Source: Candidatus Hydrogenedentota bacterium
Lineage (GTDB): Bacteria; Hydrogenedentota; Hydrogenedentia; Hydrogenedentales; JAGMZX01
DNA length: 5,776 bases
Reading direction: 5' to 3'
Assembly (NCBI GenBank): GCA_029556545.1
Contig: JAKQEQ010000016.1
Coordinates: forward strand, 1 to 5,776
The notes under the pieces were generated by a model. The model was not told the DNA's origin, searched no databases, and saw only the letters and a program-made list of their open reading frames with translations. Position numbers and translations under genes: made by a program. Positions within the stretch are counted from its first letter, which is position 1. Every line of letters begins with the position of its first letter. This document shows, one piece after another, positions 1 to 5,776 of the stretch.

Positions 1-201
1 GTAGCGCGGCTCGTCCGCCTGAGTGTGGACGCCCTCGCCCGCCGCCGAGCCCAGACCGGCCCGAGCCGTCATCGGCTCGATGTAGGCCGCTAGAGTAGTC
101 GAGGTCGTAGCCCACGCGGGCCCGTACGATGACGGCGTGTCCGCCTTGTAGAGCGCCACCGTCTCCGGCAGCAGGTCATCCATCAGCGCCGGGATCGCCA
201 T
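1..201 (-). CDS. Probable phage head-closure / head-tail joining protein, N-terminal part
   Basis: This gene is cut by the left window edge; only its first 67 residues are visible, beginning MAIPALMDDLLPETVALYKA, with no stop. The start chosen (ATG at 201-199) shares a base with the stop of the connector gene (TGATG), which fits translational coupling; a G-rich GGGGGAG stretch lies about 10 bases upstream. A second in-frame ATG at 183-181 is possible. The 'LLPETVALYKADTPSSYG' opening, with a beta-strand-like start and a polar loop, resembles small phage proteins of the head-closure/adaptor type (SPP1 gp16 or HK97 gp7-like). In siphophage head modules such a protein normally follows the gp6/gp15 connector, and it does so here. 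The gene is very likely real. The functional call rests mainly on position and is moderate to weak; another minor capsid or tail-completion protein is possible. Confidence 0.6.
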   Translation of the reverse strand, partial: MAIPALMDDLLPETVALYKADTPSSYGPAWATTSTTLAAYIEPMTARAGLGSAAGEGVHTQADEPRY

Positions 202-596
202 CAGAACGAACTCTCCCCCGGTATGCTCGTGCCCGCCTGCGCCACGCCCCGGTACAGCAGGCCCGCCTTCATCAGGGCGAAGCGGACCCGCGCCGTGGTC
301 CGCGCGTCTATCGGCACCGTCGAGGCGCCGGGTTGATTGACCGTCAGCTTGCCGATGGTGTAGCTCGCCACAGTCGCCGCCGTGTCCGCCGCGTTGCGTA
401 TCCAGTACTCGCACAGAGCACACGCCGCCGCCTTTGTTGCCGAGACGTGCGTAGCCTCCGTGGTGTCAACGCGGTTCAGCGTCAGGTAATCAACCTCCTC
501 AGACGCCCGCGCCAGCAGCCTGTCAACGTCCTCTGGCAGGTCGTCCTGCGAGATGGCGAGATACTCCGCCAGGTCGGCAGATGTCGCGTAGCTCAT
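201..596 (-). CDS. Phage head-tail connector protein, gp6/gp15-like
   Basis: A 131-residue, mostly helical protein. The N-terminal pattern (SYATSADLAEYL, then LPEDVDRLLARASEEVDYLT, then a helix KAAACALCEYWIRN at about 74-87) is typical of the HK97 gp6 / SPP1 gp15 head-tail connector family, and 131 residues is a usual length. These proteins form a ring under the portal vertex, gated by helices, onto which head-closure proteins dock. The C-terminal stretch with IGKLTVNQP followed by an Arg-rich helix is also usual for the family. The ATG start at 596-594 forms an ATGA overlap with the stop of the large upstream gene, and GAGGAG stands 7 bases before it, so the start is well supported. A probable head-closure gene follows with a one-base overlap. 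The family assignment comes from sequence pattern and gene order and is fairly confident. Confidence 0.78.
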   Translation of the reverse strand: MSYATSADLAEYLAISQDDLPEDVDRLLARASEEVDYLTLNRVDTTEATHVSATKAAACALCEYWIRNAADTAATVASYTIGKLTVNQPGASTVPIDARTTARVRFALMKAGLLYRGVAQAGTSIPGESSF

Positions 597-3082
597 GTCT
601 GGCTCCTCAGCAATCTCGCCAGCCGCGCCCGTTCGCGCGCGCTAAACCTATAGACTCCAGCATCAGCCTTGAACGGGTTGACGCCCAACTCTAGCTGCAC
701 GCCGTCCGCCTGATTCCGCCGAATCCACGCTCCGAACAGCCGTGCATCCTGCCAGATGGTGCTGGCATAGGCGGACGTGCTGTCTGTGAGCGTCAGACCA
801 CCGCCGCCGTTGATGAAATCGCCGCTGACCGCTCGCGTCGCAGCAAAGGCCGCCAGCATCGTGTTCCGCATGTGCTGGCGTTCGAGGTCGACTCCCCGCG
901 TCTTGTTGTAGAGGTCGTTAGTCCTCACGCTGTCGCAGTGCTCGAAGAGGCTCAGGTTCGTTGACTGCACAAGGCAGGACGGTTTGCCTGCCTTGATCGC
1001 GGCGATGAAGTCGTTCACATACTCGATGTAGATTGTCCCCGGCTCGCGGGCCTCGCTCCAGTCCAGGCCGGAGATCCAGTAGTTCGGCGAAGAGTAGAGC
1101 GCCCACGACCCGCTCAAAACGGACGGGTCTTTCGCGGTAGAGACAGCCCAGTCCGTTTCGTTGTCGGGCGGCGCGTCGCCGCCCGTCTTACCCGCCGCCG
1201 TCACGTACACAACGCCCTGATACACGCAGAATGCACCCGCGCCGTAGGCCGTCTCGGCGCTCCACTCTGTCAGCGGCGATACCGAGCCGCTGGCGGCATA
1301 AATCTGCCCGTCCACCGGACTCCAGACCCTGTCGCCGCTGGCATACGTCCCGTACGGACTCCACCGGCCGCTCCTCGGGTCGGGGTTCGACAGCAGCGTT
1401 GCGAGCGTGGCCGTGAAGTCCAGCTTGACCTCGTCAATGTCCAGCTCGCCGACGAGCTGCGTGATCCGCGCCAGTGTCAGGTTGTAGAGATCACCCGGAC
1501 TGGCCGGGCCGCTGGCGTATGTTTTGTCAGGGACGTAATAATACCGCCCTGCCGTGTCGTCCGAGGGGATGCTGAAGTGCTGCGGCGTGCTCGTCGCGGG
1601 ATTGCGCAGATAGTCGCCATCGTAGTCCTCGAACAAGGCCGAGTCACTCGACACGCAGAGCGTCAGGTAGAGCTGCACCAGGCTCCCGCTGGCGTGCCAG
1701 CGGTCCACCGCAGCCCTGAACGCGGCCAGCATCTCCGCCTGCGTTGCGCCCTCGGCCAGCCCGAGGAAATCCTTGTGATACGTCCAGTCGCCAGCCTCTC
1801 CGCGCCCGGTCGCCGTCTTCGCGCCTCTCCAGCCCTCGTCAATGGCCACCCAGCGCGGATTGACGCCAGCGGCCTTCGTCGTCGCGAGGTCGGTGTCAAT
1901 CTTCGCGATGGTCGGCGTCCAGGTGTCCTCGATCCAGGTGGACTGCTTCAACTCCAGCGCCCGCGCAGGCGTGTCCGGCTCGTAGAGCGTCCCCGCGACG
2001 CGCGCGGCGGAGACAATGCCCGTAGCCGCTTCCTCGATGGTGTCGCCAAAACTCCACGCGAAACGCGGAAGCGTCACCGTGTCGCCAGGAGCAAACTCGC
2101 CCGTCCCATGCAGCCACCTGCACTGCGTCCCGCTCGCCACCGTAGGTGTCACGGTCCCGCCGAACTGAATCGAAGCCGCGTCGTAGTCCAGCGCGCCCTC
2201 GCCCAGATAGCTGACAGCCGCGTTCCCGGCCACCTCGAGCAGCATCAGGTGCGACTGCACGGGCGCGCCGCTCGTGCTTCCGACCGCCGCCCAGTCGCGC
2301 GTGTTCGTGTGATAACGGCGCGTGTAGTAGCCGGGCGATACGAGCGCCGACGGCATCCCGACCCGGCTGAAGCCGGGGAATGTTTTCGGGGTTCCGGCCA
2401 CGTCGGTGATGTTCTTCAGCGTCTCCGTGAAATACAGCCACTTGCCAGAGTCAGGGATGTAAAAATCGAACAGGAACTGCTGGACTTTGCTCCCCGCCGT
2501 GTTGTGGGAGCAGGCGAAGGAAAACGTGTTGCCGCTGATGGTAGGCGTCGCCTCAACCTGAAACAAGCCAGATGACACCGCCCACGCTGTCTGCGCGGAC
2601 GTCTGTTTGGCGTGAGCGTTGAAACCCGAATCCAGCCCTTGGGCGATACCCAGCCCCAGCCGGTCGTACCGCAGGATGTTCCAGTCACTGTCCCGCACCC
2701 AGAGCCACCAGCCGAGCGTGCTGTTCGCGCCAGTGCCAGTCCACACGCCCTGCACGACCGACACATGCAGGTCGGCGGATTTCGCCGTCTGTATGATGCC
2801 CGTGCGCGGGGTCAGGACGGCATCAGCGCCCGCGCCGCCGCCAATCGCCGTCACAGTGCAGTCCGCGTCGTTAGCGTAAGCGAAGCCGGGGTCCTTGATG
2901 TGGACTGCCAGGATAGCGCCGGTCGTCGGGTTGGTCTCGATGTAGCCTGTCGCAGGCCGCTTGCCCGTGCCAGACGCAGGCGTCGAGAACGTGACGGCCG
3001 AGCCGTTGACGTAGCCCGCGCCCGCCGTCGTTACGACGACCGAGTGACAGCCCTTGTTGTGAGTCTCTAGCGTTAGCGCCAT
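593..3082 (-). CDS. Putative virion-associated GH36-like glycoside hydrolase / adhesin with internal carbohydrate-binding-like modules
   Basis: 829 residues. Residues about 16-92 hold two degenerate GxGY-type repeats (TTAGAGY, DPGFAYA) ending in Gly/Ala-rich turns, as found in many phage tail and fibre proteins. Residues about 100-375 look beta-rich, in the place of the N-terminal beta-domain of GH36 enzymes. A barrel-like region follows (about 380-760): WVAIDEGW at 411-418 with GDWTYHKDF at 431-439 matches the GH36 'DDGW...GDW' signature; SSDSALFEDYDGDYL at 478-492 matches the 'PDSELY..HPDW' strand; EVKLDF at 551-556 matches K-x-D, making Asp555 the candidate nucleophile; SVRTNDLY at 718-725 makes Asp723 the candidate acid/base. 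Two aromatic modules interrupt the barrel (about 572-648). The gene starts 4 bases after the previous stop, with a weak GGCGAG. Family knowledge suggests alpha-galactosidase-like activity; substrate and virion location are inferred. A non-catalytic receptor-binding role is the main alternative. Confidence 0.72.
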   Translation of the reverse strand: MALTLETHNKGCHSVVVTTAGAGYVNGSAVTFSTPASGTGKRPATGYIETNPTTGAILAVHIKDPGFAYANDADCTVTAIGGGAGADAVLTPRTGIIQTAKSADLHVSVVQGVWTGTGANSTLGWWLWVRDSDWNILRYDRLGLGIAQGLDSGFNAHAKQTSAQTAWAVSSGLFQVEATPTISGNTFSFACSHNTAGSKVQQFLFDFYIPDSGKWLYFTETLKNITDVAGTPKTFPGFSRVGMPSALVSPGYYTRRYHTNTRDWAAVGSTSGAPVQSHLMLLEVAGNAAVSYLGEGALDYDAASIQFGGTVTPTVASGTQCRWLHGTGEFAPGDTVTLPRFAWSFGDTIEEAATGIVSAARVAGTLYEPDTPARALELKQSTWIEDTWTPTIAKIDTDLATTKAAGVNPRWVAIDEGWRGAKTATGRGEAGDWTYHKDFLGLAEGATQAEMLAAFRAAVDRWHASGSLVQLYLTLCVSSDSALFEDYDGDYLRNPATSTPQHFSIPSDDTAGRYYYVPDKTYASGPASPGDLYNLTLARITQLVGELDIDEVKLDFTATLATLLSNPDPRSGRWSPYGTYASGDRVWSPVDGQIYAASGSVSPLTEWSAETAYGAGAFCVYQGVVYVTAAGKTGGDAPPDNETDWAVSTAKDPSVLSGSWALYSSPNYWISGLDWSEAREPGTIYIEYVNDFIAAIKAGKPSCLVQSTNLSLFEHCDSVRTNDLYNKTRGVDLERQHMRNTMLAAFAATRAVSGDFINGGGGLTLTDSTSAYASTIWQDARLFGAWIRRNQADGVQLELGVNPFKADAGVYRFSARERARLARLLRSQT
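604..609 (-). promoter_or_regulatory. Shine-Dalgarno site of the connector gene
   Basis: GAGGAG on the minus strand, 7 bases before the ATG at 596-594 and inside the 3' end of the upstream 829-codon gene. It supports independent initiation at this start in addition to coupling through the ATGA overlap. Confidence 0.6.
803..1945 (-). other. GH36 / clan GH-D-like catalytic barrel within the 829-residue protein
   Basis: Residues about 380-760 carry, in the right order, the recognisable GH36 motifs: the D-E-G-W loop (Asp415, Trp418), GDW (431-433), the 'DSxLF' strand (480-484), the K-x-D nucleophile strand (Lys553, Asp555) and a late R-T-N-D (Asp723) in the acid/base position. The classical GH36 CxSGGGRxD motif is not seen; QSTNLSLFEHCDS (706-718) stands in its place, so this is a divergent member. 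Confidence 0.6.
1139..1369 (-). repeat. Two tandem CBM5/12-like modules inserted in the barrel
   Basis: Residues about 572-648 hold two successive units with the pattern Tyr...Gly-Asp/Ala...Val...Gly-x-x-Tyr...Pro...Trp. Unit one has YASGDRVWSPVDGQIYAA and ends in PLTEW. Unit two has YGAGAFCVYQGVVYVTAA and ends in NETDW. This resembles the aromatic chitin/cellulose-binding CBM5/12 fold that recurs in phage fibres. It lies between the candidate nucleophile Asp555 and the candidate acid/base Asp723, as a loop insertion. Confidence 0.55.
2807..3037 (-). repeat. Degenerate GxGY-type beta repeats at the N-terminus of the 829-residue protein
   Basis: Residues about 16-92 contain VVVTTAGAGYVNGSAVTFST and later VHIKDPGFAYANDADCTVTA, each followed by a Gly/Ala-rich turn (SGTGKRPATG, GGGAGADAV). 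This is the repeat style 'GxGYxxxPxVtfs...GGGxxAxA' common in phage tail and fibre proteins. It probably forms a small beta-domain that joins the protein to the virion; that role is inference. Confidence 0.5.
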
Positions 3083-3086
3083 GTGT

Positions 3087-3527
3087 TTAGCTCGCCGAGT
3101 TCCCCAGCGCGATCACGTACAAACTGCAGTCCGCGTCAGAGCCGCGTATGCAGGACACCTGTCCGCCACCCGATACCACCGCCTGCGGCGTCGAATGCAC
3201 GTCCACAGTCACTGTCGCTCCGGGAGCGATGATGATGCCATCGCCGACAGCAGGCGCGGTAGGGACTACGGCAGTCCCGTTGACCTTCACCCAGGCATAT
3301 TTGCCTGCCGTGGTCGTGGCGTTGAAAATGATGAGGCGCTCGGCCACCAGTTCGAGGTTGGCCGCCGTCGCCGAGGACCCGGCCGTCAGCAGGCAGGACT
3401 TCGCCATCAGGTAGCCCTGCTGCTGGGTTTCCTGCAGCCCCAGGGTGTCATTCGCGCCGACAGACTCGAGGAAATCGCCCCTGGCCTCCGCGCTCGGGTA
3501 GTCGATCATGTTGATCGTCGTTGTCAT
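3087..3527 (-). CDS. Small beta-rich protein, probable phage structural protein of unknown function
   Basis: 146 residues, not recognised as a named family. There is no signal peptide or membrane segment. The first 45 residues are polar, with a possible helix and a QETQQQG run. The rest alternates strands and Gly/Ala/Thr/Val-rich turns: LVAERLIIFNATT, YAWVKVNGTAVVP, GDGIIIAPGATVTVDVHST, then VSGGGQVSCIRGSDADCSLYV near the C-terminus. The strand pattern would suit a beta-sandwich decoration, fibre-tip or baseplate-type protein. Two cysteines (CIRGSDADC) could be close in space. The start is firm: AAGGAGG lies 7 bases upstream, and the ATG overlaps the stop of the 63-codon gene as ATGA. The strong ribosome-binding site suggests high expression, as expected of a virion component. 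It ends 4 bases before the 829-codon gene, so a joint role with it is plausible but not shown. Confidence 0.72.
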   Translation of the reverse strand: MTTTINMIDYPSAEARGDFLESVGANDTLGLQETQQQGYLMAKSCLLTAGSSATAANLELVAERLIIFNATTTAGKYAWVKVNGTAVVPTAPAVGDGIIIAPGATVTVDVHSTPQAVVSGGGQVSCIRGSDADCSLYVIALGNSAS

Positions 3528-3715
3528 TTGCGGGCCTCCTTAGTCTTGCGCTGCTTGGGCGCAGGATTGCTCGGCGATGTCTGCGAGGTCGTAGCCGCTG
3601 TCTCCACCGCCGCCGCCTCGACCGTTGCCGTTACCGCTGCCTCCGGCTGTGTCAGAAACTGCGGGCTCGGCCGCAGTTTCTCGCCGCCCAGCCTGGTAAA
3701 GTTCCGTGTCCCCAT
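3524..3715 (-). CDS. Small basic-tailed protein overlapping the glycosyltransferase 3' end, unknown function
   Basis: 63 residues from MGTRNFTRLGGEKLRPS through an Ala/Glu/Thr/Val-rich middle to the basic end PAPKQRKTKEARK. For 176 bases it is read in another frame of DNA that also encodes the glycosyltransferase tail. Three things suggest it is real. GGAGGT stands 11 bases before the ATG. Its TGA makes an ATGA overlap with the strong 146-codon gene, as at other junctions here. Its third-position GC (about 76%) beats the glycosyltransferase frame over the same bases (about 62%), where that frame turns into a Gly/Asn-rich low-complexity tail. No family is recognised. Small proteins with Lys/Arg tails often lie between capsid and connector genes in phages, which is a weak hint only. 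The alternatives are a shadow frame, or the true C-terminus of the glycosyltransferase after a frameshift. Confidence 0.55.
   Translation of the reverse strand: MGTRNFTRLGGEKLRPSPQFLTQPEAAVTATVEAAAVETAATTSQTSPSNPAPKQRKTKEARK
3535..3541 (-). promoter_or_regulatory. Strong Shine-Dalgarno site of the 146-codon gene
   Basis: AAGGAGG on the minus strand, 7 bases before the ATG at 3527-3525. It is the best ribosome-binding site in the window. It overlaps the TAA stop of the glycosyltransferase gene (3542-3540) and the last codons of the 63-codon gene. Confidence 0.8.
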
Positions 3716-5309
3716 GATGTTTCAATACCTCCGCTATAACGTCTGCCGCCTCCGGCAGGTAATCGCTCCACGGCCCGAGCGGCGCCCCGTTGGCGTGGCT
3801 GCCGTAGTACTCGCACGGCTGCCGGTTGACCTCGGGCAGCGTCAACTTCTTATACAGCGCCGACGCACGCCAGTACGGGTTGCCGTGCCGCACGGGCAAA
3901 ATCAAATCAGGATGCCGCACCGACGGGATAAGCACGATGCCGTTCTCAAACGCGCCAGCCACATGCACCGGTGATGAGTCGTTTGTCACCAGCACCGGGC
4001 AGCGCTTCACCAGCGCGAACATGCCGCCCATCGTTGTTCTATCCCGCAGGTCCAGGCCGTTCGCCGGGCACTCGACGGGCAGCACTCCGTGGATGCCGCC
4101 GTTCAGCCCACAGAGCACGATCGGGACCGTCTCCGCAATGCCATCTATGACGGCCTGCCACCAGTCGACGGGGAACGTGCGGCTCTCCCACGTCCTGCCT
4201 GGGTGTATCAGCACGGCCTCGTTCAGCGGGAATCCGTTCGCGAGGCCGTCAATCTCCGCCTCGTCGCCGTCCGAGACCGTCAGCCGGATCTGTTTGTCCG
4301 CCGTCGGCAACTGCATGTGCAGCAGCCCGATCGAGGCGAAATCCGTGCCGTTGCTGCCAACGTGTGTCAGAAAGCTGAATATCTTCGCTGTCGCGTCCGC
4401 CGGGACGGTCGCCGCGTGGAACGCAGGCTCCGCCCCGAAGGGACTCTCCGGCCCGAAACTCAACATCGCGTCCGGGTAGGTGCCCTGAAACACGCGCGGC
4501 CAGGGCGTTGTCACCCGCACGTCGTCGCCGGGGAATATCTCCTGCATCGCATACCGCAGAACCGGCTCGGCATCGATCACGTCCCCGAGCCCGCCGCCGA
4601 GGTCGAGCCAGACCCGCCGCCTGATCTTGTAGTCCGGCGCCAGCTCGCGCCAGTTCTCGACCAGCGCCGCCGCGTAGTCCCTCGCCTGCGCCGGGTGTAT
4701 CCCCGCGAAGTGCGCGATCTTGCCCGCCTCCATCGGCAGTCCGGTCGCGTGCTGCATACTCGGCATGTAGTTGAGTTCGTAGCGCAGGTCGTGCCACTCC
4801 GTGCTATGCACCGCCGCCGCGACGTTCAAATACGTCTGCTCAAACATCAACTCGTTTGCAAAGTTGAAGTCGCCGCCGGGCGGCTTGAACAGGTGCCGAT
4901 GTTTGCGCGACAGCACCATCACGCCCGTGTTCCAGTAGCGACCATCCCAGCCCATGTCGCCCTTCACGTAACGCTGGAACCCCTGCCGCATCACCTCCGT
5001 GCGCGGCATAAACAGCCCCTCGTTGAATGCGCCGACGGTGTTCTCCGGCACGATCTCGAACAGGTCCGGGCAATCCGGCCTCAACACGCAGTCAGTGTCC
5101 AGGTAGATCACCCGGTCATACTCCCGGCCGAGGATGTCGTAGAGCTGGAGCTTCTCCCAGTGCGGCCCCCAGCGCTCGCCCGATGGCGATGTGATGGCCC
5201 CGAAGTCCGCGCCGACCCGCTTGGCATACTCCTGCATCAGCGGATGCGTCACCTGCGCCAGCGACTGCCAGGCGTCGCCGATCGCGATGGTCAGCACCAG
5301 GCGCTTCAT
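3540..5309 (-). CDS. Two-domain glycosyltransferase, GT8-like plus GT9-like fusion
   Basis: 589 residues from the start used here (ATG at 5309-5307, MKRLVLTIAIGD). This start makes an ATGA overlap with the methyltransferase stop and begins on the first strand of the fold; the frame stays open further upstream, but only as out-of-frame methyltransferase sequence. Residues 1-205 look like a GT8/glycogenin-type GT-A domain: VIYLDTDCVL with the metal-binding DTD at 71-73, WNTGVMVLS at 126-134, and HFAGIHP at 200-206 resembling the HxxGxxKP end motif. Residues about 232-530 look like GT9 (heptosyltransferase, GT-B): LGGGLGDVIDAEPVL, VLIHPGRTWESRTFP at 366-380 and LVTNDSSPVHVAGAF at 440-454. Such enzymes transfer sugars from nucleotide donors. 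Having both suggests two successive transfers onto one acceptor, perhaps a virion protein or surface glycan. The Gly/Asn-rich tail after about 540 overlaps another reading frame and may be a by-product of it. Confidence 0.85.
   Translation of the reverse strand: MKRLVLTIAIGDAWQSLAQVTHPLMQEYAKRVGADFGAITSPSGERWGPHWEKLQLYDILGREYDRVIYLDTDCVLRPDCPDLFEIVPENTVGAFNEGLFMPRTEVMRQGFQRYVKGDMGWDGRYWNTGVMVLSRKHRHLFKPPGGDFNFANELMFEQTYLNVAAAVHSTEWHDLRYELNYMPSMQHATGLPMEAGKIAHFAGIHPAQARDYAAALVENWRELAPDYKIRRRVWLDLGGGLGDVIDAEPVLRYAMQEIFPGDDVRVTTPWPRVFQGTYPDAMLSFGPESPFGAEPAFHAATVPADATAKIFSFLTHVGSNGTDFASIGLLHMQLPTADKQIRLTVSDGDEAEIDGLANGFPLNEAVLIHPGRTWESRTFPVDWWQAVIDGIAETVPIVLCGLNGGIHGVLPVECPANGLDLRDRTTMGGMFALVKRCPVLVTNDSSPVHVAGAFENGIVLIPSVRHPDLILPVRHGNPYWRASALYKKLTLPEVNRQPCEYYGSHANGAPLGPWSDYLPEAADVIAEVLKHHGDTELYQAGRRETAAEPAVSDTAGGSGNGNGRGGGGGDSGYDLADIAEQSCAQAAQD
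3654..3681 (-). repeat. Perfect 11-bp inverted repeat with 6-base loop
   Basis: The arms AGAAACTGCGG and CCGCAGTTTCT (3654-3664 and 3671-3681) are exact reverse complements around a 6-base loop. No T-run follows on either strand, so it is not a usual Rho-independent terminator. It lies inside the region read in two frames, about 32 bases after the 63-codon start, and could fold in the mRNA to affect translation or decay. Confidence 0.6.
3727..3732 (-). promoter_or_regulatory. Possible Shine-Dalgarno site of the 63-codon gene
   Basis: GGAGGT on the minus strand, 11 bases before the ATG at 3715-3713. The spacing is on the long side but workable. It lies within glycosyltransferase codons, so it could be chance. 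Confidence 0.45.
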
Positions 5310-5776
5310 CTGGCGCCCACCGTGATCATCGCCTGCCGCGTCATCACCTGATGAACCTCGAAGCTGACCCGGTAGTCCGGCCCAAGGTCCGGCAGGCCCG
5401 GCCGCCAGACCCACACCGTCTGCGGGTAGTAGATCGCGCCCGGCAGCAGCTCGTCCACCGCCTGCGTCACGCCCTCGAGCGGCCCCGCGTCATGTCCGCA
5501 CATCACGCCGCCGGGTGCCAGAAGCGGCAGATAGTTCGTGATGTCCGCGTGGACGTCCGGGTACTCGTGCCCCGCGTCTATCCATATTAGGTCCGCCGTC
5601 ACGCCGCGCTTCGCGAGTTCGGCGGCGCCTTCGGTACTGCTCATCTTCAGCAGCTCGAGCTGCCCCGAGGCCAGCGCCTCCGCGTTGTTCTCGCGGTAGA
5701 TCGCCTCGACCTCATCGGTGTTGTAGTGCCCCGCGGCCTCGTCACCTATGAGCCAGTCCACGCTCCAGACCCGCTC
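5306..5776 (-). CDS. Class I SAM-dependent methyltransferase (TylF / Methyltransf_24-like), C-terminal part
   Basis: The frame is open to the right edge (156 residues visible), so the start and the glycine-rich SAM motif I lie outside. The visible part begins ERVWSVDWLIGDEAAGHY, which fits the strand after motif I, with the acidic residue (Asp7) that binds the SAM ribose, then the W-x-G-D loop of this family. ADLIWIDAGHEY (61-72) and LAPGGVMCGHD (86-96) match the 'IDGDHSY...GGxxxGHD' signature of Mg-dependent sugar O-methyltransferases such as TylF and CmcI and of Methyltransf_24 proteins. The GTG at 5761 sits within the fold and is not a sensible start. The gene ends in an ATGA overlap with the glycosyltransferase, so the two are probably made together and act on the same glycan. 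O-methylation of a sugar is the likeliest reaction; the substrate is unknown. Confidence 0.82.
   Translation of the reverse strand, partial: ERVWSVDWLIGDEAAGHYNTDEVEAIYRENNAEALASGQLELLKMSSTEGAAELAKRGVTADLIWIDAGHEYPDVHADITNYLPLLAPGGVMCGHDAGPLEGVTQAVDELLPGAIYYPQTVWVWRPGLPDLGPDYRVSFEVHQVMTRQAMITVGAR

Follow-up and report, generated by a model that had tools for sequence, protein, structure and literature searches.

Background

Described phage enzymes that degrade polysaccharides are mostly beta-helix tailspikes. These depolymerases act from the phage particle on host surface glycans, and the same role is proposed here for an 829-aa open reading frame (ORF) whose catalytic domain is a predicted (beta/alpha) barrel instead of a beta-helix and whose gene precedes that of a head-tail adaptor. 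The ORF lies on a single whole contig of 5,776 bp (the window), which comes from a 6.1-Mb metagenome-assembled genome bin.

The DEGW...GDW motif pair of this ORF is GH36/GH27-like. In the order of the motifs DxGW...GDW, D.T and K.D the ORF resembles two GH36 enzymes, GalA of Thermotoga maritima (PDB 1zy9, 5m12, 6gvd) and a galactosaminidase of Flavonifractor (9awt, 8x1b); their half barrels superpose on the model described below, and they have a beta-rich domain in front of the barrel, as is predicted for the ORF. The ORF differs from these enzymes in its low identity (about 15-25%), the lack of a match to the Pfam Melibiase and Raffinose_syn models, the carbohydrate-binding-module (CBM)-like insert after beta-4, the tail-like N-terminus and the diverged second half. 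GH31, represented by the Escherichia coli alpha-xylosidase YicI (1we5), has the superfamily fold in common with the modelled part of the ORF but no sequence match to it.

A parallel from phages is the 'capsid fiber protein' AWY02808 of Alteromonas phage JH01, for which an HHpred match to alpha-galactosidase over 93 columns has been listed (PMC8228385, Table 3). Compared by description only, it resembles the ORF in having an alpha-galactosidase match in a capsid-associated protein, and it may be an analogue; being listed as 112 aa long, it cannot hold a whole barrel (PMC8228385). Our literature searches returned no GH36 virion protein.

Genomic context

The ORF occupies positions 593-3082 of the reverse strand, with an ATG start, a stop codon at 593-595 and no internal stop in the ORF list of the contig. 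Its stop overlaps by 4 bp the start of the 131-aa head-tail adaptor gene (201-596, reverse strand; phrog_541, E 2.1e-20), which places it in a structural module and agrees with an earlier note, made from the letters of this DNA, that had set the ORF beside head-tail connector genes. The adaptor shares 32% identity with gp09 of Streptomyces phage Raleigh, encoded two genes past the major head protein of that phage. Within the bin, the adaptor gene is the sole match to phrog_541 and neither the portal model PF04860 nor the capsid model PF05065 has a match, so that this contig is perhaps an isolated piece of a phage genome, or was binned in error. As its G+C of 0.65 is close to the 0.62-0.63 of two host loci, a binning error is neither shown nor excluded.

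Immediately upstream of the ORF, a 146-aa protein (3087-3527, reverse strand) has weak phrog_36734 and hexapeptide-type matches and no clear relative; BLASTP found no relationship to Raleigh gp08, and it may serve to decorate the head. The second gene upstream of the ORF, still in the apparent phage structural module, encodes a 590-aa protein (3540-5312, reverse strand) that consists of a glycosyltransferase family 8 domain fused to a family 9 (heptosyltransferase) domain; no full-length relative of this protein was found in named phages. Its gene is overlapped by that of a Methyltransf_24 domain protein (5306-5776, reverse strand; E 7.6e-12), truncated by the contig end, and the two products could jointly modify a glycan. 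The opposite strand holds long open frames at 3081-3974 (297 aa) and 4089-5351 (420 aa), which are probably a by-product of the 65% G+C.

Sequence comparisons

All features of the ORF given below are on the reverse strand. Residues 1-105 (2768-3082) form a tail-fibre/baseplate-like domain with GxGY-type repeats at about residues 20-80, in line with the repeats that had been noted at the start of the protein. The family matches of this domain are weak: phrog_5342, 'tail fiber protein', over residues 12-97 (E 1.3e-4), phrog_22827 (E 0.002) and phrog_438 (E 0.005), while the best tblastn match of the N-terminus to phages had an E of 0.3. Residues 106-365 (1988-2767; boundaries approximate) are a predicted beta-rich domain ending in FAPGDTVTLPR, on which an HMM of host GH36 sequences puts its conserved pre-barrel segment PGE.vrtPR, a placement that is not significant alone.

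The first barrel half, beta-1 to beta-4, spans residues 366-572 (1367-1987). It contains DEGW at the end of beta-2 (residues 415-418; 1829-1840) and GDW (431-433; 1784-1792), both recovered by motif, alignment and hhalign, followed by SDSALF (479-484; 1631-1648), which aligns to the GH36 segment S.LF..HPDW, and EVKLDF at the end of beta-4 (551-556; 1415-1432) with the proposed nucleophile Asp555 (1418-1420). The second half, from alpha-4 to the end of the protein (residues 651-829; 596-1132), contains RTNDLY (720-725; 908-925), placed by motif as a proposed beta-6 with the candidate acid/base Asp723 (914-916). All five motifs stand in the order that the earlier note had claimed, with Asp555 and Asp723 at the residues it had numbered. 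A regular expression for the ordered set, written post hoc, matched 1 of 200,000 shuffles.

Between the two halves, a stretch of about 78 aa (about residues 573-650; 1133-1366) with two W...Y..GD.V...G..Y-like repeats is read from its sequence as an insert that splits the barrel, not as a barrel element. Its carbohydrate-binding character, which the earlier note did not mention, is suggested by phrog_6278 (E 0.0017) and by CBM5/12 (PF02839), the latter below the cut-off (E 0.024; 15.1 bits against 26.2 required).

GH36 profiles were built from cellular sequences of the bin's phylum and 80 loci from GTDB genomes, and the hhalign profile comprised 92 cellular GH36 barrels. Set against the 80 cellular barrels and in hhalign, residues 415-555 follow the GH36 order and spacing of DxGW...GDW, D.T and K.D; D415, K553 and D555 are kept, and Lys553 and Asp555 are invariant in the alignment. 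With HMMER, the first half ranked 7 and the insert-free barrel 9 among 10,000 shuffles, and a model extended upstream placed the ORF at rank 27 of 20,000. hhalign returned a single alignment, 165 columns long and reaching from beta-1 to alpha-4 (22% identity, P 8e-4), whose register of DEGW, GDW, SALF, D.T and VKLDF is exactly that proposed beforehand and whose score exceeds those of 1,000 shuffles (two runs) and of 133 unrelated segments of viral ORFs, among them one with IDEGW. Taken jointly, the profiles point to a GH36-like barrel at about p 0.001 and not more; they were run after GH36 had been named, and this figure is uncorrected for other families.

Other comparisons gave no signal. The second barrel half was silent to the GH36 HMMs, and HMMs from small or NPCBM-type GH36 sets gave no significant score. 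PF02065 (Melibiase), PF05691 (Raffinose_syn) and NCBIfam had no match at E up to 10 in the whole protein, its halves or the version with the insert removed, and no GH family was detected when the whole protein, its parts and insert-free versions were scanned with Pfam, NCBIfam and PHROGs. Counts of identities at conserved GH36 columns did not separate the protein, with 13 of 30, from its shuffles, 29 of 400 of which reached that number.

Structure prediction

Predicted from its sequence alone with AlphaFold2, the full protein had a pLDDT of 33 and was unusable. The model used here covers residues 355-829 and was built with 55 GH36 rows spanning beta-1 to beta-4 only; the rows were limited to the first half because MAFFT, when given full GH36 rows, placed their second half in the CBM-like insert, and split rows were misaligned. 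MAFFT gave two solutions for beta-3, and the row subset with the tryptophan of the GH36 segment IW.APF on residue 472 was chosen by us. The resulting model (pTM 0.60, mean pLDDT 59.7) has high confidence in most of its first half, the half barrel from beta-1 to beta-4 being mostly at pLDDT 70-96, a result that is partly circular because GH36 rows went into it. The helix alpha-4 (681-699) and the strand beta-5 (704-707), predicted at pLDDT 86-89 past the insert and without alignment rows, are the more independent part of the model. The predicted strand 551-555 has Asp555 as its last residue, which places the nucleophile motif where beta-4 ends. Beta-6 to beta-8 have no confident model, and the stretch around Asp723 is below pLDDT 50, though RTND (720-723) is suitably placed in the sequence.

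Each of the 50 Foldseek matches listed was to an enzyme of GH36 or GH31 (E from 4e-6 to 3e-4), and superpositions on both families cover residues 372-721 of the protein (18-367 in the model), a range that runs across the insert. VIA Z values were 15-17 over about 190 residues for the Escherichia coli alpha-xylosidase, the Flavonifractor galactosaminidase and Thermotoga GalA, with GH36 and GH31 tied. The GH36-like barrel of the earlier note is supported as a modelled clan GH-D-like beta-1 to beta-5 in which beta-4 ends with a nucleophile motif; as to family, the structures favour neither GH36 nor GH31. GH36 and GH31 were the best PDB matches, and none of the outcomes that the note had named as contrary (a fold lacking a TIM barrel, Asp555 and Asp723 far apart, or an unrelated family as best match) was obtained with this model, whose confident part ends before Asp723.

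Searches for relatives

Relatives were sought by several routes. tblastn against 50,697 phage records and 72,556 plasmids found none, and neither did exact 8-residue seeds against IMG/VR and the GTDB genomes; a homolog search of 60 relatives was also negative, and phmmer against PDB sequences gave no match. In 68 genomes of the phylum, too, no homolog was found, the matches being only short and weak, one of them to a fucosidase-like barrel segment. In BFVD, no viral protein with the same fold was found (best E 0.15); because the query was a partial model, this result does not exclude such a protein. This orphan status implies a family that either is very rare or lies outside what such searches can reach.

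Pattern searches were also made for comparable phage proteins. The DEGW...GDW pattern occurred in 61 stretches of IMG/VR, where the motif-bearing ORFs look unrelated, and GH36 patterns retrieved no GH36 enzyme from IMG/VR. In the phage collection, GH36 was present only in unverified 'Bacteriophage sp.' fecal contigs (MT83xxxx) and in a 5.8-kb record of Listeria phage LM 4-11-1 (OR847088.1), and the genes in these contigs and this record are probably bacterial DNA deposited as phage. No other phage among those searched was found to combine a tail-protein-like front end with an alpha-galactosidase-type barrel.

As a separate observation, GH36-type genes are abundant in the bin's phylum, with at least one in 32 of 40 genomes and up to 20 matches in a single genome.

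Proposed function and alternatives

The explanation that we favour, with moderate confidence, is that the product of the ORF is a glycosidase of the alpha-galactosidase superfamily associated with the phage virion, its activity and virion location being predictions. The components of this explanation differ in strength. The reading frame itself, its coupling to the adaptor gene and the motifs are established. The presence of a GH-D-type barrel is, on the model, very probable; association with the virion, to which the operon position and the weak tail-fibre match point, is probable, and so is a putative catalytic activity, given the fold. We infer that the barrel is complete and, likewise, the catalytic pair, the substrate and the virion location. 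In the proposed mechanism, the N-terminal repeat domain would anchor the protein to the particle. The rules of the superfamily would make Asp555, where beta-4 ends, the nucleophile on the anomeric carbon of an alpha-linked sugar, and Asp723, on beta-6, the acid/base; in this way the phage would trim a glycan of the host surface, with retention, while adsorbing.

The observed pattern fits the alpha-galactosidase superfamily and does not choose a family within it; we do not assign the ORF to GH36, since the curated sequence models fail to recognise it and beta-6 is not reliably modelled. The structural tie of GH36 and GH31 also leaves some room for a neighbouring glycosidase barrel (GH31, GH97 or an undescribed family), which would be retaining or, as in some GH97, use another nucleophile. 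We regard this as improbable, given that DEGW...GDW, D.T and K.D are in register with GH36 profiles and that none of these families matched in Pfam, and its mechanism class is in common with that of the favoured explanation. By a small degree less improbable is a catalytically dead GH-D-like barrel that would bind sugars instead of cutting them, as a fibre or as a decoration of the capsid, and to which the CBM-like insert would add a second binding site. The presence of that insert, the adjoining head-tail adaptor gene and the strong divergence from cellular GH36, where 11 of 30 highly conserved columns, in beta-1 and beta-3, have another residue or none, all speak for it; the retention of the catalytic-type residues D415, K553 and D555 amid so much other change, and the existence of a candidate acid/base Asp, speak for an active enzyme.

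An enzyme that is not part of the virion, encoded by phage or host and active in the cell or freed at lysis, for example on glycans of the neighbouring glycosyltransferase and methyltransferase, would suit the two glycosyltransferase domains and the methyltransferase just upstream and the lack of any homolog of proven virion location, but the 4-bp overlap with the adaptor gene and the tail-fibre-like N-terminus make it the least likely of these alternatives. Tail fibres are usually encoded after the tape-measure gene and not before the adaptor, so that the place of the ORF counts against the virion-associated glycosidase as we propose it, as does the fact that no homolog was found to show conservation of the catalytic residues. 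The same gene place would suggest the head or neck of the particle rather than the tail tip. A further, more novel reading is offered tentatively, and we consider it rather doubtful: a new glycosidase family of the alpha-galactosidase superfamily, located on the phage head or neck, with a CBM inside the barrel and a predicted trimming of alpha-linked host surface sugars.

Significance

If the virion-associated glycosidase is real, a phage structural gene with an alpha-galactosidase-type barrel would represent a second architecture directed against host glycans, and the range of linkages that phages can cleave would be wider. The ORF could, further, serve as a seed for detecting relatives that present family models overlook.
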